Shown: positions 1,746-29,561 of the stretch, one piece after another
Numbering within the stretch: position 1 is the stretch's first letter
How the letters are laid out: each line of letters begins with the position of its first letter
Translations under genes and position numbers: made by a program
Source of the DNA: a virus
Direction: 5' to 3' (one strand)
Length of the DNA: 30,850 bases
Virus record (IMG/VR): IMGVR_UViG_3300009151_000250
Span: 1 to 30,850 of that record
The notes under the pieces: model-generated
The model's database searches: none
Seen by the model: the letters and a program-made list of their open reading frames with translations, nothing else
What the model was told of the DNA's origin: nothing

Positions 1746-1753
1746 TATAAATA
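1746..1753 (+). promoter_or_regulatory. T4-late-type promoter element, upstream of ferredoxin
   Basis: TATAAATA is an exact match to the T4 late promoter. With T4 spacing, transcription would start near 1759, only 3 nt before the ATG at 1762. Confidence 0.55.
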
Positions 1754-1761
1754 TATCCTAT

Positions 1762-2001
1762 ATGGCCAACATAATGGATAAATGGAAAGACAACGTTAAC
1801 GGTAAGTTTTACGTTGACACACAATGTATTGATTGTGATTTATGTAGAGAGACCGCACCTAGTTGTTTTGCCCGTAACCATGATAGTGGTTATTCGTATG
1901 TGGTAAAGCAACCGGAAACTGCTTTAGAGAACCAGCACTGTAAGGAGGCACTGGAGGGGTGTCCGGTACAGGCCATTGGAGATGATGGAGTACAGGCATA
2001 A
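1762..2001 (+). CDS. 4Fe-4S single-cluster ferredoxin, 79 aa
   Basis: Cysteines C22, C25 and C28 (CxxCxxC) and C67 followed by Pro (GCPVQAIG) form the classic 4Fe-4S ligand pattern. C35 and C60 are extra and could form a disulfide. The layout matches small bacterial ferredoxins of the single-cluster type, which carry one low-potential electron. The 79-residue length is normal for the family. A T4-late-like promoter precedes it, so it may be made late. Possible partners are the radical SAM enzyme at 16603-17388 or host enzymes; that link is inference. Fold confidence is high, partner unknown. Confidence 0.88.
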   Translation: MANIMDKWKDNVNGKFYVDTQCIDCDLCRETAPSCFARNHDSGYSYVVKQPETALENQHCKEALEGCPVQAIGDDGVQA

Positions 2002-2004
2002 GTA
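1997..2004 (+). promoter_or_regulatory. T4-late-type promoter element upstream of 2011
   Basis: CATAAGTA overlaps the ferredoxin stop codon. Its last base is 7 nt from the GTG at 2011, so the predicted transcript starts 1 nt before that codon. This supports the GTG start. Confidence 0.4.
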
Positions 2005-2010
2005 ACTTAA

Positions 2011-2427: not shown

Positions 2428-2440
2428 GAGAATTGGAGTC

Positions 2441-2486: not shown

Positions 2487-2572
2487 GAAAAAAAAAGAAA
2501 AGGGTAAAGTAGAGTACTGCCTTGGGAGTAGGAGTAGTTTATTGTATCCGGTGTTGTAAGTACTTTTTTAAC

Positions 2573-4665: not shown

Positions 4666-4709
4666 ATCTTTATAATAACTACATTATTGAAAAAAGCCAA
4701 TAATAATAA

Positions 4710-4717
4710 TATAAGTA
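4710..4717 (+). promoter_or_regulatory. T4-late-type promoter element for the methyltransferase gene
   Basis: TATAAGTA ends 10 nt before the ATG at 4727, giving a predicted 4-nt leader. The same bases could act as a -10 box for a host-type -35 TTGAAA at 4687-4692 (17-bp spacer to TATAAG), so dual use is possible. Confidence 0.45.
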
Positions 4718-4726
4718 TATGTTCTT

Positions 4727-5299
4727 ATGCAACGTTGGGACGTTATTAATACATTAATACAGAAATATAACTATAAAAGTTATTTAGAAATAGGCACCCA
4801 GCACGGTAATTGTTTTAGAGAAGTTAAATGTGAGCACAAAGTTTGTGTTGATTCCTCTAAAGACTTCGATCAGTTAACTCATACAATGACAAGTGATGAT
4901 TACTTTAAACAGTATAGCGATAAGTTTGATATTATTTTTGTAGATGCATTACATACAGAAGAACAGACAATCAAGGATATAAACAACAGTCTTGTAATAT
5001 TGAATGACAACGGTACGGTAGTGGCACATGATTGCTTACCGGATGGGGAAGGGGCAACTGGCATGCATGCATGTGGTACCTCTTATATGGCTCCAATATG
5101 GTTTAGGACTACTATTACAAACGTTACTGTTCAGGTTGTAGACACGGATGCCGGTTGCGGTATATTTCGCAAAGGCACAAATCCATTATACACTAAAGAA
5201 TGTTACGACACTGCCAAGCAATTTAAATACTTTAACGAAAATAAAAAAGAACTAGTAAACGTTATTAGTGTTGAAGAGTTTAACACTCTGTTTAAATAA
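4727..5299 (+). CDS. Class I SAM-dependent methyltransferase, 190 aa
   Basis: The Rossmann signature is clear: motif I YLEIGTQHGNCF (about residues 19-30) would bind SAM. VCVDSS follows as the acidic end of strand 2, FDIIFVDALHTEEQTIKDI covers motif IV, and NGTVVAHDCLP the following strand. The VDALH and AHDC pattern is typical of the small-molecule or sugar O-methyltransferase group found beside glycosyltransferases in glycan loci. Length is normal. It lies 7 nt before a GT2 glycosyltransferase, which suggests joint work on a glycan. Acceptor unknown. Confidence 0.8.
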   Translation: MQRWDVINTLIQKYNYKSYLEIGTQHGNCFREVKCEHKVCVDSSKDFDQLTHTMTSDDYFKQYSDKFDIIFVDALHTEEQTIKDINNSLVILNDNGTVVAHDCLPDGEGATGMHACGTSYMAPIWFRTTITNVTVQVVDTDAGCGIFRKGTNPLYTKECYDTAKQFKYFNENKKELVNVISVEEFNTLFK

Positions 5300-5306
5300 A
5301 CAGTAA

Positions 5307-6008
5307 ATGAAGTTCTCTATCGTTATACCCACTTATAATCGTTGGGATTTAGTTAAAAACTGTGTTGATAGTATTGTTAATACTATTGACTTGACAGATG
5401 GAGAAGTCATTGTTTCTTCTAATGGTTGTACGGATAATACCCCGGCTAATGTAGCTAGCACTTATGCAGGTAAAAATATATACTGTATACATTGGCACAA
5501 ACCACTAGGCTATTCCAAAGCAGTTAATATGGGTATGTCTGCTGCTACTGGAGATATTGTTATTTTGTTAAACAACGATGCAGCATTTTTAGGTAGACAT
5601 TGGTATGATGTGTTAACATTGCCATTTGTTACTACTCCTACAGCTGGTGTTACCGGGGTTATTAAACGTTACCAAGGTGGTAAGCCATGGATTCTTTTCT
5701 TTTGCGCAGCAATAAAACGGGAAGTTATTAACACTATAGGCTTACTTGATGAAACATTTACTCCAGGTTGTGGTGAAGATATTGACTACTGTATTCGAGC
5801 TTTTGACAAAGGCTTTACTATACATCAAGTTCCCGAACAAGTTTTAGAGCATGTTGCAGGGACAAACAAAATGTCTGGCTCGTTTCCTATATACCATGAC
5901 GGTGGAGTTACTGTTAACAAGAACCCTAACCAGTCTGCTATATATGCTCGTAATATGAAGATAGTTATGGATAGATACGGTCCACCAACAGATGGGCCGA
6001 TATTATAA
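5307..6008 (+). CDS. GT2-family glycosyltransferase, 233 aa
   Basis: It starts FSIVIPTYNRWDLVKNCVDS, the standard first strand and helix of GT-A family 2 enzymes. EVIVSSNGCTDNT, then GYSKAVNMGM and IVILLNNDA follow. The metal-binding DxD is replaced by N89-N90-D91, as in rhamnosyltransferase-like GT2s. Later comes GCGEDIDYCIRA, with the ED pair that usually supplies the catalytic base. Length fits a single-domain enzyme with no membrane segment. It follows the methyltransferase by 7 nt. Donor and acceptor sugars cannot be read from sequence. Confidence 0.87.
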   Translation: MKFSIVIPTYNRWDLVKNCVDSIVNTIDLTDGEVIVSSNGCTDNTPANVASTYAGKNIYCIHWHKPLGYSKAVNMGMSAATGDIVILLNNDAAFLGRHWYDVLTLPFVTTPTAGVTGVIKRYQGGKPWILFFCAAIKREVINTIGLLDETFTPGCGEDIDYCIRAFDKGFTIHQVPEQVLEHVAGTNKMSGSFPIYHDGGVTVNKNPNQSAIYARNMKIVMDRYGPPTDGPIL

Positions 6009-6058
6009 GTAGTGTATTTTTTATTAAAGCAACTACCATATATCTTTTGGTAGGATTA

Positions 6059-6066
6059 AGTAAGTA
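6059..6066 (+). promoter_or_regulatory. T4-late-type promoter element upstream of 6073
   Basis: AGTAAGTA ends 7 nt before the ATG, so the predicted transcript starts 1 nt before the start codon. A 6-bp inverted repeat (CTACCA 6033-6038, TGGTAG 6048-6053) lies just upstream. Confidence 0.45.
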
Positions 6067-6072
6067 TATCAT

Positions 6073-6465
6073 ATGAAACGTAACATTTACACATTATTGG
6101 CGGAGAAGTACTCTATAGTACAAGAAAATCCGCTTGAAGTAGAAATTGAACCAGGTGGTACTCATAAGTCAGATCATAATGTGGAAATGGCTCGTACTAA
6201 AGCACATCAAGCAGCTGAAGTAGCTCCTGCTTTACATCATTTGTTAGACCAAATGGATGCAAATGCACCATTACAGGCTTGGATGGTTACTCATGTTACT
6301 CAAGCAGCTGATATGCTACAAGATGTATTAGCTAAGTTAAGAGAAGAGAACGAAGAACCAAATATGGAACCAGTTAAAGAAACAGATTTTGAAACACCAG
6401 AAGGTGATGGTGAAAACACTAGCAACACAATGGGTTCAGACGGTAACGTAAATGGAGCAATGTAA
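6073..6465 (+). CDS. Putative internal virion protein, 130 aa
   Basis: Residues 1-18 read MKRNIYTLLAEKYSIVQE; L9-A10-E11 fits the gp21 (L/I)-x-E cleavage rule and resembles the start of the gene at 2011. The middle is a His/Ala-rich helical region (HKSDHNVEMARTKAHQAAEV, about residues 32-51) and the C-terminus is an acidic tail with GDGENTSN. No enzyme motif. A late-type promoter element precedes it, and a similar gene follows by one base. I infer an internal head protein or scaffold-associated cargo; function is unproven. Confidence 0.65.
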   Translation: MKRNIYTLLAEKYSIVQENPLEVEIEPGGTHKSDHNVEMARTKAHQAAEVAPALHHLLDQMDANAPLQAWMVTHVTQAADMLQDVLAKLREENEEPNMEPVKETDFETPEGDGENTSNTMGSDGNVNGAM

Positions 6466-6466
6466 T

Positions 6467-6919: not shown

Positions 6920-6930
6920 AGAGTTTTAAA

Positions 6931-11088: not shown

Positions 11089-11529
11089 TTATAAAATTGT
11101 ATAACCTGTTTTGCTTAAAGTGCCCGGTATCCTTACTGCTTGATTATTAAGATATGGCATTACTATACTTAATTCAATATAATAGGTTTGCTCGTTAATA
11201 TTCAAAGTTATATCAACATTTGAAACCGTTATTCTTGTTTCATACATAGACAATCCGTTAACGATTGCGTTACCTATATTTCTAGCATTTGTTTCGTTTA
11301 TTTGTTCAAACAAATATTGAGATAAATCTAATCCATATAACGGATTTAATAAATTTTGACCAGGTAGGGTATTAAATAAAGAATAAATAGAATTTTTAAT
11401 AGCTGAAGCATCATAATCTGCTTGCAAATCTTTATTTATAGGGTTGTTAAAATCTAAATGCAAATCCGAATAAGTGTACTTGTTAGATACTGTTACCTTT
11501 TGTAAACCTGTAAAACTTATGGATGGCAT
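11089..11529 (-). CDS. gp25: Baseplate wedge protein, T4 gp25-like, 146 aa
   Basis: The core of the GPW/gp25 domain is visible: DASAIKNSIYSLFNTLPGQN, then LLNPLYGLDLSQYLFEQI (about residues 60-77). ETRITVSNVDITLN and the closing β-strands follow. The motif, with a Pro-Gly turn before the N-P-L-Y-G box, is shared by the T4, Mu and P2 baseplate wedge and by type VI secretion TssE. T4 gp25 is 132 residues, so the length fits. It heads the leftward baseplate operon, and a late-type promoter element precedes its ATG by a predicted 2-nt leader. Confidence 0.88.
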   Translation of the reverse strand: MPSISFTGLQKVTVSNKYTYSDLHLDFNNPINKDLQADYDASAIKNSIYSLFNTLPGQNLLNPLYGLDLSQYLFEQINETNARNIGNAIVNGLSMYETRITVSNVDITLNINEQTYYIELSIVMPYLNNQAVRIPGTLSKTGYTIL

Positions 11530-11536
11530 TGTAAAA

Positions 11537-11544
11537 TACTTAGG
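11537..11544 (-). promoter_or_regulatory. T4-late-type promoter element for the baseplate operon
   Basis: CCTAAGTA on the minus strand ends 8 nt before the gp25 ATG, giving a predicted 2-nt leader. It stands back to back with the plus-strand element at 11550-11557. Confidence 0.45.
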
Positions 11545-11549: not shown

Positions 11550-11557
11550 AGTAAGTA
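11550..11557 (+). promoter_or_regulatory. T4-late-type promoter element upstream of 11568
   Basis: AGTAAGTA ends 11 nt before the ATG at 11568, giving a predicted 5-nt leader. A GGGGAAGAG purine run lies just upstream, too far away to be a good ribosome site. Confidence 0.45.
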
Positions 11558-11567
11558 TAATCATTAT

Positions 11568-12605
11568 ATGAAAAACAGTAAGTTTAACTCTTTATTTAAA
11601 GAAGCTTATAGCCGTTTTACTAACGGAAACGGCTTTCTCGTTGGAGATGTCGTCAAAATGAAATCCGGATACGAATCTGTAGAGGGCTATAAGAGCTTAG
11701 GTGAAAATGTTAAACAACGAGTTAAAGATATGTTGAAGTCAGGTAACAACATACGCATAGGTAGATTGCATAATACTACAGCTAGTAGATACAGTGCTGA
11801 TGGTTCAAATTCTTCGCCAGCACAATATGCTGATTGTTATGAAGAGTATGCACCAGGCATGGTAACAAATTTAATTACCCTTCCTATCGAATGTTTAGAA
11901 GAAGTTAATACAGGTGCAAATTTACCACCAGTATCTGAAGAACAAAAGGATACAGAAGAGCGAGTTACCGGACCAGATGAAATGGGTAAGCATGGTTGGC
12001 ATAAAAATAAAAAAGTTAATGAACAAAACAAACTCGGTAAAAAGCAGAACTGGGTTGAAAAAGGTAATTACGAATTAGCTACAAAAAATACCAAACTCTC
12101 CCATTCTAACAAATATAACGATGCTTTACCTCCAAAAGTAAAAGGGCTTGAAAAAGTTAAAGAAGTAAAAGAATCTGCATTAGTAAAATCCGAAAATCTT
12201 TTAGATAATCTTTATTTTGAAATACTTAATGAAAGTGATATGGAGTATGAAGGTAACGAGTTTACTAAAAAATTAGCTCAAACTAAAAAAGGAGACAAGT
12301 TTAAAATAGACGGTAAAACCATAACAAATACAACCGGTACTATTGATGAGGAAATTTGCTCAGTATGCGGTAAAGAGATTTGTGAATGTGATATGATGGA
12401 AGAATCTGAAGAGATTTGTCCAAAATGTCATAAAAACCCATGTATATGCGAAACTGAAGTAAAAGATGAATCAGGCCTTCAAGCATACATAGGCAAAAAG
12501 AAGTATGGTGCAGCTGATTTTAAAGCTTTACAGAAAGCTGGTAGAGAGCACGATATGAAGAAAAAAGAGCAAATTAAAGCTAAACACTCACACCACGGAA
12601 GTTAA
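11568..12605 (+). CDS. Probable virion protein with tandem Cys zinc knuckles, 345 aa
   Basis: The N-terminus FNSLFKEAYSRF is of the capsid-targeting type seen in other genes here. A domain of about 100 residues follows (FLVGDVVKMKSGYES, then NIRIGRLHNTTASRY and MVTNLITLPIECLEEV). A Lys-rich disordered middle is next. Then come two copies of C-x2-C-x4-C-x-C: C264, C267, C272, C274 and C284, C287, C292, C294, likely binding zinc. The C-terminus (FKALQKAGREHDMKKKEQ) is basic and ends in a His-rich tail. Its end overlaps the convergent clamp-loader gene by 18 nt, with a terminator inside that gene. Family not recognised. Confidence 0.75.
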   Translation: MKNSKFNSLFKEAYSRFTNGNGFLVGDVVKMKSGYESVEGYKSLGENVKQRVKDMLKSGNNIRIGRLHNTTASRYSADGSNSSPAQYADCYEEYAPGMVTNLITLPIECLEEVNTGANLPPVSEEQKDTEERVTGPDEMGKHGWHKNKKVNEQNKLGKKQNWVEKGNYELATKNTKLSHSNKYNDALPPKVKGLEKVKEVKESALVKSENLLDNLYFEILNESDMEYEGNEFTKKLAQTKKGDKFKIDGKTITNTTGTIDEEICSVCGKEICECDMMEESEEICPKCHKNPCICETEVKDESGLQAYIGKKKYGAADFKALQKAGREHDMKKKEQIKAKHSHHGS

Positions 12606-14129: not shown

Positions 14130-14137
14130 CATAAATA
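14130..14137 (+). promoter_or_regulatory. T4-late-type promoter element for gp16
   Basis: CATAAATA ends 6 nt before the GTG at 14143, so the predicted +1 is the G of the start codon. This supports the GTG start and a leaderless mRNA. Confidence 0.45.
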
Positions 14138-14142
14138 TTATT

Positions 14143-14730
14143 GTGAATCAACCGCCTTTACCGGATAATACAGCATCGGATAATCAAAATGTAATAAATC
14201 AAATAGATGATTTTATTGCTGGATTAAATTCTGAAGATAAAGAGCTAATTACCAATAACCCTGCTAAGGTAGAAGAAGTAAAAGTCGAAACACCTAAAAC
14301 AGATCAAGAGATACAAGACTTTATATTAAAGAACTCTGCAGAATTAGCCACCCTTACTGTTAAAAGTGTTAAAGATATGCAGCAAATGGTTACTGCTATG
14401 GGGGATGCAGAACAAATGGCGGGTTTAGCAAGCCTTATTGCCGCGGGCGCGGGAGCATTAGAAACTATTAATAAGATAAACTTACAAAATAAAAAAGCTG
14501 AATCTAATAAAGATCTTAAAAGATTGGACATTGAAGGTAAAAAAGAAATACAGCGACTTAAAAACGATGGGTATCTTAATTTACCTCAAGGCAATACGAA
14601 CATACTAGTAGCTACTAGAGAAGAAATGATCGCTCAATTAACCGGTAAAGTTAAAGCTAAGACTGTTAATGTTACTAACGAGGTTATTGAGTTGGAGTTG
14701 GGGCAGCTGTCTTCACAGCCTTCTTCTTAG
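14143..14730 (+). CDS. gp16: Small terminase subunit, T4 gp16-like, 195 aa
   Basis: GTG start, supported by a late promoter element exactly 6 nt upstream. An acidic N-terminus leads to a helical core (FILKNSAELATLTVKSVKDM, then MVTAMGDAEQMAGLASLIAA and ETINKINLQNKKAES) and the C-terminal strand NILVATREEMIAQLTGK. From memory, T4 gp16 has the same arrangement: a helix with LMGQMTTTNREILKLHKDM, then a strand near SPTELMDEIG. The small subunit recognises phage DNA and stimulates the large-terminase motor. No large terminase lies in this window. Its end overlaps the convergent spanin-like gene by 47 nt. Identification is by pattern only. Confidence 0.6.
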   Translation: MNQPPLPDNTASDNQNVINQIDDFIAGLNSEDKELITNNPAKVEEVKVETPKTDQEIQDFILKNSAELATLTVKSVKDMQQMVTAMGDAEQMAGLASLIAAGAGALETINKINLQNKKAESNKDLKRLDIEGKKEIQRLKNDGYLNLPQGNTNILVATREEMIAQLTGKVKAKTVNVTNEVIELELGQLSSQPSS

Positions 14731-15634: not shown

Positions 15635-15639
15635 ATATA

Positions 15640-15647
15640 TACTTATA
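15640..15647 (-). promoter_or_regulatory. T4-late-type promoter element for the spanin-like gene
   Basis: TATAAGTA on the minus strand ends 6 nt before the ATG at 15634, so the predicted +1 is the A of the start codon. Confidence 0.45.
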
Positions 15648-17388: not shown

Positions 17389-17394
17389 TATTAT

Positions 17395-19111: not shown

Positions 19112-20089
19112 TTATTCCCCGAATAACGAGTCTTCGTCAAAACATTGCGACTTCTTAGAGTATTCAACGGGCCTAGACGAAAAAAAGTCAACCATATTAT
19201 TACCAAGTAATTCTTCGTTAAACCAGTTAGCTTTTTTAATTAATGCAGAATCGATTTCAAATACAGTCGGAAAACCGATATTAACTAAGGATTCATTAAT
19301 GCGATCTTTAATTAATTCTTTTAAAATAGGTGCAGATAGACCGTCTTCTTTAATACCATTAACCATCCAGTCGATAATTTTTGCTTCACTTTCATACGCT
19401 TCTTTTGCTTCTGATAAGATCTTGTCTTCAAGCTCTTTATCAAAAAGCTCTGGATGCTCTTCTCTAATTGTGTTAATAATTTTTATACCAACCAAGCCAT
19501 GTATGCGCTCTTCATTACGAGTGTATTTAACTTGTTGGTCGGTATCTTTAAGTACGTTCTTATTACGAGCAAACCAATTAATAACGTAGAACTGACTCAT
19601 TAAAGAAACGTTTTCTACAAAAAGGGTAAAGAGGATAATAGCATACAAATATTGCTTCTTTTTGTCTTTATAATACCGGTGTGTATATTTTTTAAGGTAT
19701 TTAACACGTCCCTGTATCCAATCTAGTTTAAGATTTTCTTCAAATACATTTTCTAATCCGAGTACAGTGAGTAGTCTTTCATAAGCATTATTATGGATTA
19801 CTTCTGTATTAGCCATAACATAACCAAGATCTTGTAAAGAAGGATGTGGTAAGTTTTCTCCAAGCTTAGCCCAAAAAGACTTTACAGCTATTTCAATTTG
19901 ACCGATAGCAGATAGTGTACGGATAATAATTTCACGTTCTTGGTCATTAAGTTTAACCTTAAATTGCTGTACATCTGATTTAAAACTAAATTCCTTATGA
20001 GTCCAAAATCCATTATGCATAGATTCAATATACTCTTCAGTCCAGGGATAGCGATTAGGTTTACGAGAAATTTGTTCGTCGAATATCAT
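19112..20089 (-). CDS. nrdB: Class I ribonucleotide reductase small subunit, 325 aa
   Basis: Ligands follow the ferritin-like pattern: E66 (QIE), E96 and H99 (NTEVIHN), radical Tyr Y103 (HNNAY, three residues after H99), E159 (FVENVS), and E194 with H197 (RNEERIH). E66 is about 30 residues before E96, where E. coli has Asp84 thirty-one before E115, so the first carboxylate may be Glu rather than Asp. The subunit makes a tyrosyl radical and passes it to NrdA. The C-terminus CFDEDSLFGE is the usual docking tail. It is first of the nrdB-nrdA-radical SAM-GT operon and about 110 nt downstream of PhoH. Confidence 0.93.
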   Translation of the reverse strand: MIFDEQISRKPNRYPWTEEYIESMHNGFWTHKEFSFKSDVQQFKVKLNDQEREIIIRTLSAIGQIEIAVKSFWAKLGENLPHPSLQDLGYVMANTEVIHNNAYERLLTVLGLENVFEENLKLDWIQGRVKYLKKYTHRYYKDKKKQYLYAIILFTLFVENVSLMSQFYVINWFARNKNVLKDTDQQVKYTRNEERIHGLVGIKIINTIREEHPELFDKELEDKILSEAKEAYESEAKIIDWMVNGIKEDGLSAPILKELIKDRINESLVNIGFPTVFEIDSALIKKANWFNEELLGNNMVDFFSSRPVEYSKKSQCFDEDSLFGE

Positions 20090-20198: not shown

Positions 20199-20978
20199 TT
20201 AAGATTTTTTGTTATAAAGTTCTAATTTTTTTACAATGTACTTGACTATCTCACTACGTACAATATCTGCTTCTGTTAATGTAAATACGTGGATACCTTT
20301 ATCTTTGCTTTCTGCATCGTTAAACACATTGCACATTTTTTCAAAGCCTGACTTACCATTAATGTCGGATTGCATTGGATCCCCGCAGATAAACAACTTA
20401 CTAAATTGCCCTACCCGGGTTAATAGCGTTGTTAATTCTCTAAAAGTACTATTTTGTGCTTCGTCCATTATAATAGCTTTAGCGTTCCAGGAAAGCCCGC
20501 GAAGATATCCTGTCGGTTTGCCTTCAATACGGTTTTCTTTCATAAGCATATTAATATCTGCTTTAATTAACAGCTCGTCAAGTTTTTCCATTAACGGTTC
20601 AAGATAAGGGGTAAGTTTTTCGTTGGCATCTCCTGGAAGATATCCCATTTTGTTGTCTGAACTTTCTACTATACTGCGAATGTATATTAGGTCAGAAACC
20701 TTTTTTAAATTTAATAATTCTAACGCAACCAATGTTGCTAAAAAACTTTTACTACTGCCTGATGGCCCTGTAATAAAAACAATTTTAGTATTATTATCTA
20801 ATGCTAGTTTAAGAAAATCCTTTTGCCTGTTAGTTAAGTCAGGTCTTTGACGAATCATCACCGGCCTTGCTAATTTTTCGGCCTGATGCACTAAAGGACT
20901 TCTGTCTTTAGTGTCAGGTATAATATTTTGACTGTTTTGAGATAACTTCTGTTTTTGCAGGCGTTTATTCTTACTCAT
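20199..20978 (-). CDS. phoH: PhoH-like P-loop ATPase, 259 aa
   Basis: Walker A GPSGSSKS at residues 71-78, followed by the Walker B-type box AIIMDEAQNS (about 168-177) and the sensor strand FICGDPMQSD. The PhoH family gives ATPases with a RecA-like fold, common in phages and phosphate-stress operons; biochemical function in phages is unclear, with RNA or nucleotide roles proposed. The N-terminus (NKRLQKQKLSQNSQ) is a basic tail. Its ATG is preceded by a late-type element, unlike the NrdB operon that follows it, and it diverges from the basic gene at 21013 with a 34-nt gap. Confidence 0.93.
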   Translation of the reverse strand: MSKNKRLQKQKLSQNSQNIIPDTKDRSPLVHQAEKLARPVMIRQRPDLTNRQKDFLKLALDNNTKIVFITGPSGSSKSFLATLVALELLNLKKVSDLIYIRSIVESSDNKMGYLPGDANEKLTPYLEPLMEKLDELLIKADINMLMKENRIEGKPTGYLRGLSWNAKAIIMDEAQNSTFRELTTLLTRVGQFSKLFICGDPMQSDINGKSGFEKMCNVFNDAESKDKGIHVFTLTEADIVRSEIVKYIVKKLELYNKKS

Positions 20979-20984
20979 TGATAA

Positions 20985-20992
20985 TATTTACT
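20985..20992 (-). promoter_or_regulatory. T4-late-type promoter element for PhoH
   Basis: AGTAAATA on the minus strand ends 7 nt before the ATG at 20978, giving a predicted 1-nt leader. It is paired back to back with the rightward element at 20999-21006. Confidence 0.4.
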
Positions 20993-20998: not shown

Positions 20999-21006
20999 CC
21001 TAAATA
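20999..21006 (+). promoter_or_regulatory. T4-late-type promoter element upstream of 21013
   Basis: CCTAAATA ends 7 nt before the ATG at 21013, giving a predicted 1-nt leader. Confidence 0.4.
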
Positions 21007-21012
21007 ATATAT

Positions 21013-21357
21013 ATGTTTAACCAATTTGATACAAAATTAAATGAACTATTAAAAGAGTTTACAAATACTTTTCCTGTTGAAGGTCATGCTCCTACTTGGC
21101 AAAAGAAAGCTGGGAAATCCCCATCTGGAGGTCTTAACCGTAAAGGTATTGCAAGCTATCGTCATAGTCACCCCGGTAGTCATTTGTCTATGGCTGTTAC
21201 TACTAAACCAAGTAAATTAAAACCTGGTAGTAAAGCTGCTAAACGCCGTAAAAGTTTTTGTGCTCGCATGAAAGGGGTTAAAGGCCCGATGAAAAAACCA
21301 AACGGTAAGCCTACTCGTAAAGCTTTAGCATTGCGTAAGTGGAACTGTCACGAGTAA
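21013..21357 (+). CDS. Basic DUF6321-like protein, 114 aa; possible packaged DNA-binding protein
   Basis: The C-terminal 80 residues (GLNRKGIASYRHSHPGSHLS, then KLKPGSKAAKRRKSFCARM) carry the signature of the phage family I know as DUF6321: a GLNRKG start, a TKPSKLKPGSK stretch and a KRRKSFCARM box. The protein is strongly basic, so it likely binds DNA or RNA. The N-terminus has FDTKLNELLKEF, with L-N-E and L-K-E triplets like the gp21 cleavage motif. A late promoter element precedes it and a strong terminator follows, between it and the convergent major capsid gene. Role in packaging is inference. Confidence 0.75.
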   Translation: MFNQFDTKLNELLKEFTNTFPVEGHAPTWQKKAGKSPSGGLNRKGIASYRHSHPGSHLSMAVTTKPSKLKPGSKAAKRRKSFCARMKGVKGPMKKPNGKPTRKALALRKWNCHE

Positions 21358-21443: not shown

Positions 21444-22931
21444 TTATAGCATTTGAGCTGCAGTACCAGGAACAAAAGCGGTACCGAGACCAGAAACGAT
21501 AATGAGGTGATAATATAATGCTGCACCGAAGATATGATCAATGACGCCATAACGGGTCATTAAACCAACACGTGGGCTGAAGTCATTAGGTCCGATTGTA
21601 CGTTGTACCAATACTGGAATGTATGGGCAGTAAACGATACCGGTATCATAGTATTCAGCACCCTTGTAACCAAGTAGAGCATATTCTAGAGCAGTTGCAC
21701 GAGCACCAACTTGGTACTGAGCTTCTGTACGGGTATCACGGTAGATCGTGAAACGACCACCAACGGTACCGACTTTAGCTACACCAACAGGTTGTGTGTT
21801 AACGTTGCCGTTAACTGAGAACCACTGGAACTCAGGAAGCATTTCAAACATTGCGCAAACACGAGGTGTAGCAATGATGAAGTTAGCAGCACCACGACGA
21901 TTGCGGATAGCAACACGGTTAGCTTCAACAATAACACGTGCATAGAAGTCACGATTACGCTCACCTAACCAACGACCATCTGCAGAAGCTGCTGACCAGA
22001 ATGAATAACCTTGACCAACACCTGCGTTTAACGCAACTTGGCACATACGGATTACCATTTCACGATCAATTTCAGCTTGAATTTCGTACGACATAGCGTT
22101 CGTTAATTCATTGTCGATGTCGATACCGTTCATGTTCTTGAGATCTTGCTCAAGTTCAACGGACCAACGAGCTGCTAAACGACGTGTACCAGCTTCAACA
22201 GCAGTCTTTTCAAATGAAACGACCATCTGAGGAATGTTGCTAGTTAGTTCGAAGTTAGCTAATAATTGAGCTACACCAGAATCGCTACCAAGCATTGGGA
22301 AAGCTGGATCAGGTGAACCGTTAGCTAATTGACCACCTGTTAACCAAGCAGCTGATGTGCCTGTAAACTGAGTGTTCAAATAGTTCCAACCTACTTCTTG
22401 ACCTTCTACGGCTTGACCGTTAGCATATTGATTCCAAGGAGCAACAGCGTTTGATGGATTAGAACCAGAACTGTTTAAACCATTGTCAATTTGATTTTGT
22501 CCGAGTGGAGTGTTTTCGTATTTGTAACGTAAAGCAAAAGCAAGTCCGACAGGACCGCTCATTGGTTGTACGCCTACGATTTCGTTAGTAACGAGCTCTG
22601 GGAAAGTACGGCGGATCATCGTAATGAGGATCTTTGGTAAACGAGCATCACCAGAAGCATAGAAGTCACTTGACTTACCTGTCTGAGAGTTGTTGTAACC
22701 TAAGCTACCACCGAATACACCTGTTGTACCATCGCCACCTGCTACGTTAGCAGCTTCAAAGCACCACTTCTCTTGATTTTCAAGAAGAATAGCTGTGTTC
22801 AGCTTTGTGTGATCATCTTTGATTGCTGGAGTTGCATCGTCAGCGTGCTCGAGCAATGGTGCCCACTTTTTGAGAAGTTGGCTTGCGCGATCACGATCGA
22901 TGTATGATTGTGAGGGTCTAATTGATTTCAT
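21444..22931 (-). CDS. gp23: Major capsid protein, T4 gp23-like, 495 aa
   Basis: The N-terminus SQLLKKWAPLLE matches the gp23 start (T4: LLNKWKPLLEG). It goes on through ILLENQEKWCFEAANVAGGD to RRTFPELVTNEIVGVQPMSG, aligned with T4's LIAFDICGVQPMNSPTGQVFAL. T4 gp23 is cut after LTE; here the corresponding position reads CFE/AANVAGGD (residues 57-66), so E59 is the likely cleavage point. Length is close to T4's 521. The protein forms the hexameric head lattice. It sits last in the leftward head operon, has its own late promoter, a hairpin leader and a strong terminator, all fitting very high output. Confidence 0.96.
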   Translation of the reverse strand: MKSIRPSQSYIDRDRASQLLKKWAPLLEHADDATPAIKDDHTKLNTAILLENQEKWCFEAANVAGGDGTTGVFGGSLGYNNSQTGKSSDFYASGDARLPKILITMIRRTFPELVTNEIVGVQPMSGPVGLAFALRYKYENTPLGQNQIDNGLNSSGSNPSNAVAPWNQYANGQAVEGQEVGWNYLNTQFTGTSAAWLTGGQLANGSPDPAFPMLGSDSGVAQLLANFELTSNIPQMVVSFEKTAVEAGTRRLAARWSVELEQDLKNMNGIDIDNELTNAMSYEIQAEIDREMVIRMCQVALNAGVGQGYSFWSAASADGRWLGERNRDFYARVIVEANRVAIRNRRGAANFIIATPRVCAMFEMLPEFQWFSVNGNVNTQPVGVAKVGTVGGRFTIYRDTRTEAQYQVGARATALEYALLGYKGAEYYDTGIVYCPYIPVLVQRTIGPNDFSPRVGLMTRYGVIDHIFGAALYYHLIIVSGLGTAFVPGTAAQML

Positions 22932-22962
22932 AATATAATAATTTTTTAACTAACAATACCTC

Positions 22963-22980
22963 AAGCATTTAACAATGCTT
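22963..22980 (-). promoter_or_regulatory. Hairpin in the major capsid mRNA leader
   Basis: AAGCATT pairs with AATGCTT (7 bp, 4-nt loop) inside the predicted 57-nt leader of the capsid gene. It could stabilise the mRNA or tune translation. No T-run follows, so it is not a terminator. Confidence 0.4.
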
Positions 22981-22993
22981 CAACGTGTAGATA

Positions 22994-23001
22994 TATTTAT
23001 A
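22994..23001 (-). promoter_or_regulatory. T4-late promoter for the major capsid gene
   Basis: TATAAATA on the minus strand is an exact T4 late match, 63 nt from the ATG at 22931. It is the only candidate here with a long leader. It shares base 23001 with the T-run of the terminator of the scaffold gene. Confidence 0.65.
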
Positions 23002-23050: not shown

Positions 23051-24010
23051 TTATACTAGTTTGTTCTTAAAAAGAGAAAGATAAGATTCAGCTACAAACT
23101 GCTCACCTGTTTCGTCATTTCCGGCAGAACTAAAAGATTTTGTGGTTCTCTTTGTTTCCTGCATATTTTCTACTAGTACATCTGCATTACGAGTTTTTGG
23201 CTTCGTGGATTCTTTAAGCATTTCTAAATTTTCTTCTTCGCGCTTATCGAACATTTCTAAAACATAATTAAAGTTTTCGTTAATAAATTTTGAGCTCTTT
23301 TCTGCAAGTACGCGTTGCATATAAGATTTTTTATTTGCTGGAAGATTTGAAGTTTTCTTCTCTAATAAAAGACTTGTTTCGATTTTTTCTACTTTTTCGT
23401 TTAATAATTGAGCGCTTTTAGCAGCACTTGCTGCTTTTGCATTTGCTTCATCTATTTGACGTTTGCCATCAAGTAAAGCTTCTTTTACACTCTCGTTAAT
23501 AAATGTTTCATCTAAGCTCACTAAACGTTTAATTTCATCAATAATTTTAGCAGAACGGGTGTTCATTGTAGCTTCTTGAATTTGTTGGGTAGGAATCGCT
23601 TTATCAATATAAAGTTCAAGATAACTAGAGACGTTTTCAACTAATGTTTTCTTAAATTCATCTGCACTACCCTTGAGTGCACCTTCATACATTTTAACTA
23701 ATTTTTGTAATTTAGCGGAATGATCAATATCAATTTTATTTAAAGCTGTAGAGAATTGTTTAGCATGTACTTCATCGATACGGGACACAATTTTAGTTAA
23801 CTTTGCTGTATGGTCAGCATCAATAGCTTCTAGAACTTTTTCTAGTTTAGCAGAGTACTCTTCATCCTGTTGAACAAGAGCTGCTTCAACAGCGAGGGTT
23901 GCCTTGTCTTCAGCTTTCTTTTCGACAGCTTCAGAAATAGCTTTTAGTGTGTCCTCGGATAAGAGGTCTTTTGTTGCCTCTTTAAGAATTGTGGAAATGT
24001 CTTGGCTCAT
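23051..24010 (-). CDS. gp22: Prohead core scaffold, T4 gp22-like, 319 aa
   Basis: The protein is highly charged and helical throughout, with no Cys or membrane segment, as expected for gp22. T4 gp22 starts with an L-I-A-E site; this one starts DISTILKEATKD with L9-K10-E11. Residues 49-108 are four 15-residue repeats beginning DEEY, DADH, DEVH and DIDH. Several more L-x-E-type sites are spread along it (LNEKV, VLAEKSS), which suits degradation by the prohead protease. It lies between the protease and the capsid gene, the standard T4 order. T4 gp22 is about 269 residues, so this is longer. Confidence 0.85.
   Translation of the reverse strand: MSQDISTILKEATKDLLSEDTLKAISEAVEKKAEDKATLAVEAALVQQDEEYSAKLEKVLEAIDADHTAKLTKIVSRIDEVHAKQFSTALNKIDIDHSAKLQKLVKMYEGALKGSADEFKKTLVENVSSYLELYIDKAIPTQQIQEATMNTRSAKIIDEIKRLVSLDETFINESVKEALLDGKRQIDEANAKAASAAKSAQLLNEKVEKIETSLLLEKKTSNLPANKKSYMQRVLAEKSSKFINENFNYVLEMFDKREEENLEMLKESTKPKTRNADVLVENMQETKRTTKSFSSAGNDETGEQFVAESYLSLFKNKLV
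23687..23866 (-). repeat. Four 45-nt tandem repeats in the scaffold gene
   Basis: These bases encode residues 49-108 of the scaffold as four units of exactly 15 residues. The units start D-E-E-Y, D-A-D-H, D-E-V-H and D-I-D-H, and three of them carry AKL then a hydrophobic end. DNA identity is low, protein periodicity is clear, indicating an old duplication kept as a helical rod. Confidence 0.6.
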
Positions 24011-24021
24011 ATCGTATTAAA

Positions 24022-24029
24022 TATTTAGT
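24022..24029 (-). promoter_or_regulatory. T4-late-type promoter element for the scaffold
   Basis: ACTAAATA on the minus strand ends 12 nt before the ATG at 24010, giving a predicted 6-nt leader. Weakest spacing of the series. Confidence 0.35.
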
Positions 24030-24208: not shown

Positions 24209-24868
24209 TTATTTAAGATTGTTAATAAAGCGAATGATTTGCTCTTTTAAATAGCCATCAATATCTTTTTTAGGTAATGTACCAAGTTTACCTTGAAATG
24301 CGTCGTATACTTCTTCGTAACGACCGTCTTGCTTTATAATAAAATTTTTTGATTCTAAAATACCATTAACAAATGCGCCAGGAGCAGAAGGATCAGCTAC
24401 TGCATCAACTGTAATAAGTTTCATGTTTTTAACATGATTAACACCGCCGCTTTCGTAGACCTCGCCGAGTGCTCTAGAAGACATTCCCATTTTTACACCA
24501 TCTTGAACTAACGATCTCATAATCTCTCCTAATGGGGTGCGCAAAATTTTACTTTTACCTTTAACCAAATTACCATCCATTTTTAATTCAGTAATTAAAT
24601 GACAAGCTCTTTCACTACTAACATTAGCACTATTAGGATGTTCTAACTCTCCTAAAGCTCTGCTAGTTTTAACAAATTCATTATTATAACGTTCTACTTC
24701 TTGAGCCATTTCATCTTTATTATATATGCGATTGTTGCGGTTTTTTTCTTCTGCAACCATATAAACACCGGACACATAAATATTAGCAGGCTTATCTTTG
24801 TTGCCTTCTTCTATTAAAAAATCAAGTCCCTCAGTAATAGGGGTTTGAGTTATAAGCTTGTAAAACAT
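24209..24868 (-). CDS. gp21: Prohead protease, T4 gp21-like, 219 aa
   Basis: The catalytic region is visible: ALGELEHP with H77, then VKMGMSSRALG with S130 (or S131), and VDAVADPSAPGAF with a likely catalytic Asp. The serine-protease fold of this family cuts head proteins after (L/I)-x-E during maturation and then digests itself. The protein also has I11-T12-E13 near its start, a possible self-cleavage site. T4 gp21 is 212 residues. It is first of the leftward head operon, behind a late element with a predicted 1-nt leader. Confidence 0.9.
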   Translation of the reverse strand: MFYKLITQTPITEGLDFLIEEGNKDKPANIYVSGVYMVAEEKNRNNRIYNKDEMAQEVERYNNEFVKTSRALGELEHPNSANVSSERACHLITELKMDGNLVKGKSKILRTPLGEIMRSLVQDGVKMGMSSRALGEVYESGGVNHVKNMKLITVDAVADPSAPGAFVNGILESKNFIIKQDGRYEEVYDAFQGKLGTLPKKDIDGYLKEQIIRFINNLK

Positions 24869-24874
24869 TACCTA

Positions 24875-24882
24875 TACTTATG
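24875..24882 (-). promoter_or_regulatory. T4-late-type promoter element for the prohead protease
   Basis: CATAAGTA on the minus strand ends 7 nt before the ATG at 24868, giving a predicted 1-nt leader. Confidence 0.45.
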
Positions 24883-25998: not shown

Positions 25999-26495
25999 AA
26001 ATTATAATTTGCCCATATTCTCAAAAGCTTCCTAAAGAAAAAATAACTGATAAAAATCCTTCAGGGGAAAATCCAAAAAATTATCCGTACTGGGAAGAGT
26101 TTATACAGCTATTAAAGCAACAATTACCCGATATAGAAGTAATACAAACCGGTGTTACGTCTGAACCTATTTTAAAGGGAGTAGATACTATTAAGCATAA
26201 TTTGTTTCAAAAAGATTTATTGGAAGTTGTAAAGCAATGCGATGCTTGGTTTTCAGTAGACAATCTATTTAATCATTTCTGTACGTATTATAAAATTCCA
26301 AACGGTTTTGTGTTGTTCGGACAATCTGATCCGAATATATATGGTTATAAGCAAAATACCAATTTAATTAAACACCGAAAATATTTAAGACCTGATCAAT
26401 TCGGTTATTGGTGGGAAAGACCATATATTAAAGAGGCGTTTGTAAGTGCAGAAGAACTGTTAAAAGTAGTACTACCAGTACTTAAGGCCTCCTAA
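25995..26495 (+). CDS. C-terminal half of a GT9-like glycosyltransferase, 166 aa
   Basis: It begins KIIICPYSQK and continues KNYPYWEEFIQLLKQQL, IEVIQTGVTSEPIL, HNLFQKDLLEVVKQCDAWFS and DNLFNHFCTYY. This is the donor-binding domain of heptosyltransferase-like enzymes: a nucleotide-binding strand, a helix, then I-x-Q-x-G and the S-V-D-N box before the acceptor-side helix. On its own it lacks the acceptor domain. That half is at the end of the upstream gene, and the two genes overlap by 4 nt (ATGA). I read them as two chains of one enzyme. Confidence 0.7.
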   Translation: MKIIICPYSQKLPKEKITDKNPSGENPKNYPYWEEFIQLLKQQLPDIEVIQTGVTSEPILKGVDTIKHNLFQKDLLEVVKQCDAWFSVDNLFNHFCTYYKIPNGFVLFGQSDPNIYGYKQNTNLIKHRKYLRPDQFGYWWERPYIKEAFVSAEELLKVVLPVLKAS

Positions 26496-26498
26496 GTA
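26491..26498 (+). promoter_or_regulatory. T4-late-type promoter element for gp13
   Basis: CCTAAGTA overlaps the stop of the GT9-like gene and ends 6 nt before the ATG at 26504, so the predicted +1 is the A of the start codon. Confidence 0.4.
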
Positions 26499-26503
26499 TA
26501 TGC

Positions 26504-27664
26504 ATGGCATACGCATACAATCCAACCCCTACACATACTAACGTATATGGTGCTAGTGGCTTTTATTTAAGATTTACAGCTATTAGCGGGTTTTCGTTAT
26601 CGGGTAATGATACACCAGATTTAAATGATGTACAGACTGGTTGGTTTGCAAACGGAGACACAGTTAATAATAGTTTAGTAGTAGCTATATCTGGACAAAA
26701 TACAAATACAGTTACATTTCAAATAAATCAATCTACAGCGCTATCTAACGGAACGTATAATTTTTCTAAGCTACGTTATGTAGCTCCTGTTACAACCTCT
26801 ACAGTTGGTCCGGCTGCATTTTTATCTACTAATTTAAACAATCGTATTCAAAGTTATGATATGTTAGCTGAACGTATATTTTTTCAGCTAGGTGCACCTT
26901 TAATTAATCTTGAAATAGCCTGTAATGCAGCATATGATATGATTGCATACGCAATAGAACAGTTTACCCGCTTTACTCCTGGTACTGAAGAACTATTAAT
27001 ATTTGATTCAAGTCTTTATACACCAAGACAAGGCATTAAACTAGACACACTCGTTAATTTTACACCAGAACTCTCTGGTTGGGATTCAACATTTCAGTCC
27101 GGTTGGGATCCAGACTTAAATGATTATAGAAAAATTATAAACATTTATGATTTTACGCAAGGTACTAATGAGGGTGTTAATACATTGTTTACTATAGAAC
27201 AATCGTTAGCTCAACAAATGCATTTTGCTTATTCTTTAGGTAGTAAAGCGTTTGATATGATTACCTGGCATGTATTAAAAGACTGGTTAAAGACTCGCGA
27301 AAAATTATTTGCACAAAAGCAATACTGCCGCTTTGACCCGCGTACTCAAGTTCTAAGAATTACTCCTGATCCTGGTATTAAAAGTACTAACGCTCGTTAT
27401 TGGGCTTGTGTCGGGGTTTATCTTGAAAGACCTATTAGAGATCTAGTAAAAGAGCGTTGGGTAATGGAATATGCTAAAGCGTTAATAAAAATTTCTATTG
27501 CTAATACTCGTGGCAAATTCGGTAACACTCAATTGTTTGGACAAGGTTCATTACAGTACTCTGATTTAATGAACCAAGGTATTAATGAAAAGAAAACTTT
27601 AGAAGATGAACTAAAGGGTGGTATGTCAGAAGTACAAGAACCACCTTTATTTTTTCTCGGTTAA
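26504..27664 (+). CDS. gp13: Neck protein, T4 gp13-like with an extra N-terminal domain, 386 aa
   Basis: From residue 129 the sequence LGAPLINLEIACNAAYDMIA fits T4 gp13 ([20 protein letters not shown], from memory). The C-terminus KERWVMEYAKALIKIS, then LMNQGINEKKTLEDELKGG and PPLFFLG, also fits gp13 (RWVKDYATALAKEL, a LEKEALREEL stretch, PPFGILVG). In T4, gp13 helps seal the head neck. The first 115 residues, with Thr/Asn-rich β-strands (YNPTPTHTNVYGASGF, GNDTPDLNDVQ), are extra. It is rightward, convergent with the portal gene 25 nt away. Confidence 0.7.
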   Translation: MAYAYNPTPTHTNVYGASGFYLRFTAISGFSLSGNDTPDLNDVQTGWFANGDTVNNSLVVAISGQNTNTVTFQINQSTALSNGTYNFSKLRYVAPVTTSTVGPAAFLSTNLNNRIQSYDMLAERIFFQLGAPLINLEIACNAAYDMIAYAIEQFTRFTPGTEELLIFDSSLYTPRQGIKLDTLVNFTPELSGWDSTFQSGWDPDLNDYRKIINIYDFTQGTNEGVNTLFTIEQSLAQQMHFAYSLGSKAFDMITWHVLKDWLKTREKLFAQKQYCRFDPRTQVLRITPDPGIKSTNARYWACVGVYLERPIRDLVKERWVMEYAKALIKISIANTRGKFGNTQLFGQGSLQYSDLMNQGINEKKTLEDELKGGMSEVQEPPLFFLG

Positions 27665-27689
27665 CCTGTCTATATAACCCTTTATTTGC

Positions 27690-29546
27690 TTAAGCTGTAG
27701 GTAAAGCACTTCCGCCACCGCCCACATTAGTAGGTCCAGCTGTATTACCTGGTTCAGGGGCCCCGCCCTCAGCCCCACCTACACCAGGTGTTTCAGGTCT
27801 ACCTGTAGGGCCAGGACCAAATGAAGGAGCTCCTCCAGCACCAGGAGGCATTCCACCACCACCGCCACCCATACCAGGGGCACCACCTTCTTGACCAGGA
27901 ACAACACCGTTAGTCATTGCTTCTTTCCAATTTTTACCTAAAGTTGTAATTTTATCAATTTCCCAGCTAAAACCAGCATCTTTCTTTAACCACTCTCTAT
28001 TAGCTAGTATTTCGTCATCATTCCATTTCATATACTTCTTAAGAGCATATGTCTTTGAAATAGTGTTTTCTGTTTGAGTAGCATTTTTAAAATTAGTAAA
28101 CTTAAGTTCTAGTAACTGTTGATCCCGCATTTCATCAAAATGCTTTGGCGGGTTAAGAATAATATTAACATCATTATCTTTGAGTTTATAATCTTTCCAT
28201 AAACCTTTTAACTTAAGATGTGTTATTAGAGTATCTTTTATTGTAGAAGCAAAATGTCTTTGTAATCTTACAATAAGTTTAGCAAATTTAAGTTCTTCCC
28301 TTAAAATTTCAGCCCCATCAGCAAACTTAGCATCAGGTGTAAGTCTATTGCTTGGTACTCTTAAAGCTTTGTAAAGTTTCTTTACAAAATAATTTAAATC
28401 ATCTAATTGACCTAAGTTCTGACCACCTTTTAATGTTTCTACTTTTGTACCAGTTTCTCCATTGCGGCGAGCAAACCAGTAACTATCTAGCATACTCTGA
28501 GGATCATAAACATTTACATTACCACCTTGATTAGAGTCGTAAGTGCGTTTTGACCAGTAATTTTGCATTAAACGTTTTAAGTATGCTTCTGCTTTTGCAG
28601 CGGGCATATTACCAACATCCACATAAAACGCTAAACGCTCTGGAGCTCTTACTAACCGATATACAACAATGCTATCTTCAATAAGAGATAATTGTTTGTA
28701 TGCGCGACGCGCCACTTCAAGATAAGGTAAACGAATTGTTTTGTTTTCGTTCCAAATATGAGAGTGTAAATAGGTTACTTGATGACGTTCTAAAGGAATA
28801 ATTTCCTTACCGTCTTTTTTAGGTCCACCGGAAGGCCCTCTATTAAATTGATTTGCTTGACCGGCTTGTTGGTCTTTAGGTACAGGCTTCTGAAGTATAT
28901 ACCCCTTGATAATCATATTTTGTACGTTATCAAAAATAGGATTTACATGTTCAGTAGGTATTTGAACTAAACTAATAATACCTGCTTCTTGATTATCTTC
29001 ATTAATTACGTTTTCAAAAAATAGCTCTGCATCAATAAGAATTGTTCTAAAATACTCCCACCCTTTATTATCTAAATTAAACATTTCCATTACTTGGTGG
29101 TAAGCTTTTTGTAATTCTGTCTTTTGTACAGATTCAAGCTTTTCACTTAATATTAATTGAGCGTACTGGCCTTTATCGTCTTTAACTAAAGCTTCATCAC
29201 AAATTTCATCTAAAGCATGGCTTATTTCTGCATATGAAGCCATAATACGATAATCAGCCACTCTTTTACCTTTATCAGAGTCTATTAATGCATAAAGATA
29301 ATCATGATAACCCTTATCAACTATGATACCGTTTAAGTTACTAGCAGGGTCTTTAGGATCCTGCACTATAGAAACTGCTTGTCTTAAGTTTCTTTCTTGT
29401 TGAGTAGTACCTATTTTCCAGAATGTCTCAAACTTTGGATTCAATTCAGATATATTGTCTATAACTGTAGAGTTACCGTTGTATGGCAGTTTATTAACAA
29501 AATTGTTAAAAGATTTCTGAAAAAAGTTTTGCTGTGGTTGAGCCAT
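27690..29546 (-). CDS. gp20: Portal protein, T4 gp20-like, 618 aa
   Basis: The middle contains a clear gp20 core: LSLIEDSIVVYRLVRAPERL, then YVDVGNMPAAKAEAYLKRLM, SYWFARRNGETGTKVETLKG and LYKALRVPSNRLTPD. T4 has very similar blocks (EDSLVIYRITRAPDRRVWY, YVDTGNMP, RRDGKAVTEVDTLPG, ALYMALRVPLSRI). The portal forms a dodecamer at one head vertex through which DNA passes. The first 60 residues are Asn/Gln-rich. The last 75 or so are low complexity, rich in Gly, Pro and Ala, which T4 gp20 lacks as far as I recall. A late element lies 8 nt before its ATG. Confidence 0.93.
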   Translation of the reverse strand: MAQPQQNFFQKSFNNFVNKLPYNGNSTVIDNISELNPKFETFWKIGTTQQERNLRQAVSIVQDPKDPASNLNGIIVDKGYHDYLYALIDSDKGKRVADYRIMASYAEISHALDEICDEALVKDDKGQYAQLILSEKLESVQKTELQKAYHQVMEMFNLDNKGWEYFRTILIDAELFFENVINEDNQEAGIISLVQIPTEHVNPIFDNVQNMIIKGYILQKPVPKDQQAGQANQFNRGPSGGPKKDGKEIIPLERHQVTYLHSHIWNENKTIRLPYLEVARRAYKQLSLIEDSIVVYRLVRAPERLAFYVDVGNMPAAKAEAYLKRLMQNYWSKRTYDSNQGGNVNVYDPQSMLDSYWFARRNGETGTKVETLKGGQNLGQLDDLNYFVKKLYKALRVPSNRLTPDAKFADGAEILREELKFAKLIVRLQRHFASTIKDTLITHLKLKGLWKDYKLKDNDVNIILNPPKHFDEMRDQQLLELKFTNFKNATQTENTISKTYALKKYMKWNDDEILANREWLKKDAGFSWEIDKITTLGKNWKEAMTNGVVPGQEGGAPGMGGGGGGMPPGAGGAPSFGPGPTGRPETPGVGGAEGGAPEPGNTAGPTNVGGGGSALPTA

Positions 29547-29553
29547 TTAGATA

Positions 29554-29561
29554 TATTTACA
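29554..29561 (-). promoter_or_regulatory. T4-late-type promoter element for the portal
   Basis: TGTAAATA on the minus strand ends 8 nt before the ATG at 29546, giving a predicted 2-nt leader. The surrounding TAAATATATC is shared with the elements of the capsid gene and the ferredoxin. Confidence 0.45.

Follow-up and report, generated by a model that had tools for sequence, protein, structure and literature searches.

The window analyzed here is the whole of IMG/VR virus record IMGVR_UViG_3300009151_000250, which is 30,850 nucleotides long and itself a 30.9-kb fragment. It carries T4-type head, portal, protease, baseplate, and clamp-loader genes, and its GC content ranges from 30 to 41% in 2-kb steps. 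A model reading of the sequence (hereafter the original prediction) had proposed that a motif resembling the late promoter of phage T4 sits directly in front of many start codons, so that most late mRNAs may be leaderless. In this study, we examined the core of that motif, TAA[A/G]TA (hereafter TAARTA or the box), and measured its gap, defined as the number of bases separating the final A of TAARTA from the start codon, for 32 curated genes of the window and for related viruses. Among the best matches listed, named relatives were distant, being cyanophages and marine viruses with approximately 32 to 34% identity in the capsid and portal proteins, and cyanophages ranked near the top of the named relatives for capsid, portal, and the late sigma factor gp55. 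Uncultured relatives were close: the best 80 capsid loci were 65 to 89% identical, and 72 portal loci were 44 to 100% identical. Contigs G011, G014, G015, and G018 belong to the window's own clade, the portals of the last three being 81 to 83% identical to that of the window, whereas G019 is a more distant relative (portal, 44%); of the 212 kb of another relative, G003, 140 kb were examined.

All 14 boxes named in the original prediction were found where it had placed them. In the following brackets, the first coordinates give the box, the second the interval from the box up to the start codon, and the last number the gap. On the plus strand, TATAAATA lies upstream of a ferredoxin-like gene at 1762-2001 (1746-1753; 1746-1761; gap 8), TAAGTA upstream of a GTG-initiated gene at 2011-2427 (1999-2004; 1999-2010; gap 6), TATAAGTA upstream of the gene at 4727-5299 (4710-4717; 4710-4726; gap 9), and overlapping boxes, TAAGTAAGTA, upstream of the gene at 6073-6465 (6057-6072; nearest gap 6). 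Two pairs of boxes are divergent. One pair separates the gp25-like baseplate gene at 11089-11529 on the minus strand (TAAGTA 11537-11542; 11530-11542; gap 7) from the plus-strand gene at 11568-12605 (TAAGTA 11552-11557; 11552-11567; gap 10), and the other separates the minus-strand PhoH-like gene at 20199-20978 (TAAATA 20985-20990; 20979-20990; gap 6) from the plus-strand gene at 21013-21357 (TAAATA 21001-21006; 21001-21012; gap 6). A gap of exactly 5 was found for the plus-strand GTG gene at 14143-14730 (TAAATA 14132-14137; 14132-14142), the minus-strand gene at 14684-15634 (TAAGTA 15640-15645; 15635-15645), and the plus-strand gene for a gp13-like adaptor at 26504-27664 (TAAGTA 26493-26498; 26493-26503). 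The remaining named boxes, all on the minus strand, precede the gp21 head protease gene at 24209-24868 (TAAGTA 24875-24880; 24869-24880; gap 6), the gp20 portal gene at 27690-29546 (TAAATA 29554-29559; 29547-29559; gap 7), and the gene at 23051-24010 (TAAATA 24022-24027; 24011-24027; gap 11), which occupies the position of the T4 gp22 scaffold gene, an assignment by position with no family match. One further box, absent from the original list and possibly there by chance, precedes a plus-strand glycosyltransferase-like gene at 5307-6008 (TAAATA 5293-5298; 5293-5306; gap 8) and overlaps the upstream stop codon at 5297-5299. The TAA of the box doubles as the stop codon of the upstream gene at 1999-2004, 26493-26498, and 17392-17397 (minus strand); at the first two sites, stop, promoter, and next start lie within approximately 15 bases, and the third, at gap 3, may be a chance occurrence.

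TAARTA occurred at gap 4 to 12 in 16 of the 32 curated genes, namely the 14 named genes, the gene at 2573 (gap 10), and that at 5307. The original prediction had proposed a comparison with shuffled sequence, and in 5000 shuffles of the upstream sequences the mean was 1.26 genes and the maximum was 7. At the same gaps, the reversed motif was found in 2 of 32 genes, the reverse complement in 2, and six permuted motifs in 1 to 7; the reversed control, ATRAAT, was not clean because ATAAAT sits within ATAAATA. Over the whole window, TAARTA was depleted (87 observed versus 119.6 expected), so that its placement at starts is no side effect of AT richness. The near absence of Shine-Dalgarno (SD) sites was likewise borne out, since a four-base SD core at −20 to −4 was found in none of the 32 genes, against 3 in a control stretch. 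Sequence logos, which extended to −24, showed the core TAA[A/G]TA with a weak A before it, and TATAAATA or TATAAGTA was present at several sites of the window. Bases 1 to 5 after the box were mostly A or T, which is not a strong test in AT-rich genomes.

The box was specific to late genes. In four long relatives, it preceded 24 of 46 late (structural) genes and none of 31 replication genes (p = 1.6e-7), and in the window clade 16 of 25 late genes and none of 23 replication genes (p = 1.0e-6). Structural genes without it were mostly gp23, which has a distant box in the window clade, operon-internal genes (gp6, with gp3 and gp4 in some), and gp15 and gp25 with a GTG start, which the ATG-only gene caller missed. 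The original prediction had described unboxed genes as mostly metabolic. This division is real but imperfect, as the PhoH-like gene carries a box though it is nonstructural, and the glycosyltransferase gene at 2573, said to be unboxed, has the motif provided that its start is right, as has the one at 5307. For the glycosyltransferase gene at 24946, the box was missing in 28 of 29 homologues. The radical SAM gene, also said to be unboxed, has the motif at gap 3, and its TAA is the NrdA stop codon. Gene 25995 had no box in 23 of 23 homologues.

The late-transcription proteins that the original prediction had suggested looking for were found in part. The late sigma factor gp55 (phrog_234) was detected in 14 of 23 relatives (9 of 13 plus 5 of 10 long relatives), including G014, G015, and G018; the G003 match contains two internal stops. 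The sliding clamp gp45 was detected in 9 of 20 genomes when the gp45 of G002 was the query, G002 itself included, and in 2 of 13 by the PHROG profile phrog_223; the gp45 proteins of T4 and P-HM2, used as direct phmmer queries, gave no match in four genomes.

We examined the spacing of the box in relatives by two approaches. Under a simple first-ATG rule, the gaps of 862 genes in 81 loci (the window plus the 80 capsid loci) peaked at 5 to 6 (72 and 67 genes) with a second rise at 11 to 12 (39 and 29). This second rise is at least partly due to the gene at the gp22 position, for which 39 homologues had a start codon: 23 of them had a gap of 11 to 12, and 9 lacked a box within 30 nt. The mode was exactly 5 in the four long relatives (28, 23, 12, and 20 genes), followed by 6, and gaps of 0 to 3 were nearly empty (1, 1, 3, and 1 in all). 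In the four contigs of the window clade, gaps of 1 to 4 were empty, counts started at 5 and lay mostly at 5 to 8, and a single box at gap 0 was present in three. The lower edge was sharp in seven of these eight contigs. In the second approach, starts were anchored by homology, and rows whose aligned position was other than ATG, GTG, or TTG were dropped (for example, 15 of 62 for gp21 and 20 of 40 for the portal). The box was found at gap 4 to 12 in 47 of 47 gp21 homologues (32 at gap 5 to 6), in 19 of 20 portal homologues (all at gap 6 to 8, the twentieth having its box at gap 14), in 10 of 10 gp13-like homologues (8 at gap 5), and in 20 of 21 PhoH homologues. The homologues with a start codon had gap 5 or 6 for the gp25-like gene at 11529 (3 of 4 homologues), gap 5 for the gene at 15634 (2 of 4), and gap 6 or 8 for the gene at 21013 (5 of 5); both homologues of gene 11568 had gap 14. 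None of the three homologues of gene 14143 had a start codon at the aligned place, so this start is without homology confirmation. For nine window genes located before position 5000, and for several more, the fetched loci contained no homologue.

The late box of T4 has its first T at −13 (PMC2988020), which places the last base of the box at −6 and +1 on the sixth base after it. With this register, a gap of 5 makes the initial base of the start codon the +1, as had been proposed for 14143, where the predicted +1 is the G of GTG, 15634, and 26504. Smaller gaps would cut the codon and are therefore expected to be lost, as was seen in most contigs. At the gap-5 mode of the four long relatives, the box occupies −11 to −6, that is, the place of a −10-like signal approximately 10 bp before the start. 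Leaderless translation in mycobacteria requires ATG or GTG at +1 (PMC4633059). Among frames of 60 or more codons in the four long relatives, we counted 104 ATG, 38 GTG, 4 TTG, and 1 CTG at gap 5 and 49 ATG, 3 GTG, 1 TTG, and 1 CTG at gap 6, whereas the background at gaps 14 to 29 of the same phase averaged about 4 ATG, 2 GTG, and 6 TTG; TTG at gap 5 was thus at background level. The GTG share was higher at gap 5 than at gaps 6 to 12 (p = 9e-5), and in 59 loci near the window GTG was found 12 times at gap 5, 6 times at gap 6, and at most once at gaps 7 to 16. Of 53 GTG frames at gaps 4 to 5, 37 had a homologue in another genome and 31 had one aligning within five residues of the N terminus; for 20 of these 31, the corresponding position in some homologue was ATG or GTG, with a box there at gap 4 to 12 in 19 of the 20. 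The supported frames include gp25 and gp15; often, two phages share the gap but differ in the start codon, one having GTG and the other ATG. In the window clade, an SD core preceded 3 of 52 boxed genes, compared with 14 of 273 in the control stretch, and SD cores were near control in G001 (23 versus 17) and G006 (12 versus 9). The gap-5 mode, the sharp lower edge, and the restriction to ATG and GTG fit leaderless mRNA.

The gp23 major capsid gene (21444-22931, minus strand) is the exception. Its box, TATAAATA at 22994-23001, lies at gap 62, in agreement with the distant position noted in the original prediction, and a leader of approximately 57 nt is predicted at 22932-22988 (whole interval, 22932-23001). 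The gap was 61 to 71 in 27 of 27 distinct sequences with at least 76% identity, window included. The predicted leader contains a conserved, predicted hairpin with arms at 22974-22980 and 22963-22969 (minus strand), in which 99.4% of cells were paired and three pairs change on both sides; the covariation score, computed on 22 of the 27 sequences, was 0.328, compared with at most 0.03 for slid versions. An Rfam search of the window and seven relatives gave no family at the gathering score. The hairpin is flanked by GUUG...GAG, and the leader, by eye, directly follows an apparent intrinsic terminator of the upstream gene. In 33 more distant gp23 sequences, the box was mostly elsewhere, and 19 of all 60 sequences had no TAARTA within 170 nt of gp23. 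Distant relatives (L026, L036, L042, L054, and others) have, by eye, an AAGGAG-like SD sequence before gp23 and a leader that looks different and is perhaps structured. As in T4, gp23 is likely the most heavily expressed gene.

T4 late transcription is a textbook system in which the mRNAs have leaders and SD sites. In T4 itself, the boxes lay mostly 17 to 46 nt upstream of the start (mode 27 to 28), only 2 of 51 late-region genes had a box at gap 4 to 12, and 31 of 51 had an SD core, compared with 3 in a control stretch. The T4 late promoter (TATAAATA, read with gp55, gp33, and gp45) thus resembles the element described here in its box, in the late structural genes that it precedes, and in the gp55 and gp45 homologues of the relatives, but differs in that its far box is usually followed by an SD site, whereas here the box usually ends 5 to 12 nt before the start and no SD site is present; the first two box positions are also relaxed here, and TAAGTA is common. 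The cyanophages S-PM2 and Syn9 have the late promoter NATAAATA (PMC2984593), the same motif ahead of late genes; by contrast with the window's relatives, the cyanophage P-HM2 showed no gap-5 peak among 55 annotated genes (2 at gap 4 to 12). In marine T4-like viruses from single cells, the boxes cluster at 17 to 28, and G019 has both forms, a gap-5 peak and a broad leadered group. T4, the marine viruses, G019, and the window clade therefore look like a series from leadered to leaderless. The nearest published concept is the "TA-led" leaderless gene described in bacteria (PMC3160421). Such genes and the leaderless RTG mRNAs of mycobacteria share with the present case a −10-like element approximately 10 bp upstream, ATG or GTG only at +1, and no SD site (PMC3160421, PMC4633059), but they involve host promoters and host genes, whereas here one phage sigma factor would serve many first genes of a late regulon. 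The authors of the AR9 study describe phage transcripts as "often leaderless" (PMC5312081). Among the matches listed, which cover extracts of open-licence papers, there was no recognizable report of leaderless late genes in T4-like phages.

These results support the original prediction in its sequence motif, late-gene specificity, gp55 and gp45 homologues in relatives, and register. The box is almost certainly a T4-type late promoter, and leaders of zero or very short length are likely. We consider it highly probable that the boxes are gp55-type late promoters with +1 at the start codon or a few nucleotides before it, giving leaderless or near-leaderless late mRNAs whose 5' ends are predicted here from the T4 register. 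In the mechanism that we propose, a phage gp55-type late sigma factor would read the box in this T4-superfamily phage, with promoter position locked to the gene such that the box usually ends 5 to 6 nt before the start codon. RNA polymerase would take the A or G of the start codon, or a base no more than approximately 6 nt ahead of it, as its +1, leaving most primary late mRNAs with no leader or almost none. The promoter would thereby also define the start codon, without an SD site or a leader, and ribosomes would presumably load on such 5' ends. Later operon genes, which lack a box, would have to rely on coupling or read-through, early replication genes would use other promoters, and the major capsid gene would keep its separate structured leader.

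Several observations weigh against this interpretation or limit its reach. In the window, the gap ranges from 5 to 11, so that many leaders would be 1 to 6 nt rather than zero, and the gap mode of the clade is 6 or 7 in most contigs. G003 has a peak at gap 6 with a blurred lower edge. G002 is an exception of another kind, its ATG and GTG excess extending down to gap 4 (12 genes each); this is one base too close for the T4 register and hints at a +1 one base nearer the box. An excess of GTG was not found in G003, with only 2 GTG at gap 5, or in G019, with 0 GTG and 4 TTG. Some of the 53 GTG frames are due to chance, as seven have an upstream in-frame ATG and at least one falls within gp18. A mechanical frame test also gave 4 ATG frames at gap 5 in T4 and 3 in P-HM2; coding phase favors gap 5 in this test, and no annotated T4 start is at gap 5. 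At gap 6, the sixth base after the box showed no clear purine enrichment (50%, compared with 76% at gap 7 and 84% in T4); we rejected this base as a purine marker, since the A at −2 seems to go with the start codon rather than with the box. SD cores somewhat exceeded control in G004 (14 versus 7) and G002 (42 versus 22). In G019, an SD core preceded 1 of 13 genes with a box at gap 4 to 8 and 23 of 30 with a box at 15 to 45, a contrast that is partly forced because a gap-5 box fills the SD position. As for the proteins, the gp55 and gp45 matches come from relatives, the window being a 30.9-kb fragment, and gp33 (phrog_254) was found in none of 15 relatives at E up to 0.1, with a profile that matched nowhere, the 14 control genomes included, so that this result is no proof of absence. 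Finally, transcripts reading through from upstream genes could supply some copies with leaders.

In a stronger form of this last point, the late promoter would be real, but most late protein would come from longer, leadered mRNAs made by read-through or processing, with the short-leader start being secondary. T4-type late genes are partly polycistronic, and the boxes of 2011, 26504, and 5307 overlap the end of the upstream gene, which makes read-through possible there. We nevertheless regard this explanation as unlikely, as no window gene has an SD core, the divergent pairs 11529(−)/11568(+) and 20978(−)/21013(+) have no adjoining co-directional upstream gene, and a tight register would have no evident purpose if such starts were unimportant. 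Less credible still is the idea that the box is no promoter but an A/T-rich, Kozak-like context for translation initiation by ribosomes that ignore SD sequences. Bacteroidota indeed lack SD sequences and favor A upstream of the start (PMC6847099), and unboxed genes in G001 and G004 are also A-biased at −2 and at about −8 to −11. Against this, every replication gene of the same phages lacks the box (0 of 31 and 0 of 23), the capsid gene carries it at gap 61 to 71 in all 27 sequences, and in T4 and the marine viruses it lies mostly 17 to 46 nt away; nor would a translation signal be expected to favor GTG at one register only. A composition artefact, in which AT-rich intergenic DNA and upstream TAA stops would give rise to TAARTA close to starts, finds some basis in the window's GC content of 30 to 41% and in the three window cases where such a stop coincides with the box (1999, 26493, and 17392(−), the third being the gap-3 box of the radical SAM gene). 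It can be practically dismissed, given 16 of 32 genes against a shuffle mean of 1.26, the overall depletion of the motif, its absence near replication-gene starts, and a gap mode of 5 in the four long relatives and G019 and of 5 to 8 in the window clade.

If late mRNAs of these phages are leaderless or nearly so, the merging of promoter and start codon in kin of T4 would be a natural test of high-output leaderless translation, perhaps by Bacteroidota ribosomes that ignore SD sequences. Leaderless output of most structural proteins would be unusual for a virus. We incline, with less assurance, to the view that the whole clade has lost its late 5' leaders, so that a single gp55 promoter fixes the start codon as well as the start of transcription and late translation is leaderless while host mRNAs are mostly leadered, the capsid mRNA with its hairpin leader being excepted. 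The path by which leaders were lost may be visible in the series from T4 through the marine viruses and G019 to the window clade. In Flavobacterium johnsoniae, mRNAs are mostly leadered, 87% of predicted transcripts having leaders of over 10 nt (PMC6847099). In such a host, the phage would stand apart in this respect and might thereby distinguish its own mRNAs from those of the host. For annotation, the box provides a practical rule by which start codons of these uncultured phages, GTG among them, can be called.

A Bacteroidota host is suggested by the SD-free starts, the relatives of NrdB, the bS21-like matches, and published bS21-encoding phages of Bacteroidetes, none of which is proof. The NrdB matches came from eight loci: two Flavobacteriales, two Flavobacteriaceae (one a metagenome-assembled genome), one Cytophagaceae, and one each from Lokiarchaeota, Opitutales, and an uncultured bacterium; some of these contigs may themselves be phage. 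A bS21-like match (PF01165) was present in 5 of 13 long relatives (G001, G002, G003, G004, and G006), 4 of them over the family cut-off. Its gene was not consistently boxed, with gaps of 4 and 8 in G002 and of 39 and 42 in G004 and G006 (3 of 5 had a called gene). In Bacteroidota ribosomes, bS21 helps to shield the anti-SD sequence (PMC9976891). The bS21-encoding freshwater Bacteroidetes phages are similar, by description, in their predicted Bacteroidetes hosts, late structural genes, and bS21; that report differs in that the words "leaderless" and "promoter" do not occur in it (PMC9723584). The host-type −7 element TANNTTTG showed no enrichment before unboxed genes in four genomes and gives no host evidence.

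The NrdB gene itself lies at 19112-20089 on the minus strand. Among its 21 homologues with a start codon, the box was at gap 8 in 5 and at gap 20 to 21 in 12, two distances that may reflect leadered or alternative use. At the end of the window, a minus-strand gene at 29615-30850 runs off the sequence and contains GYSG and GTNGSSGYSG repeats that appear collagen-like by eye; its product is perhaps a tail or fiber protein.

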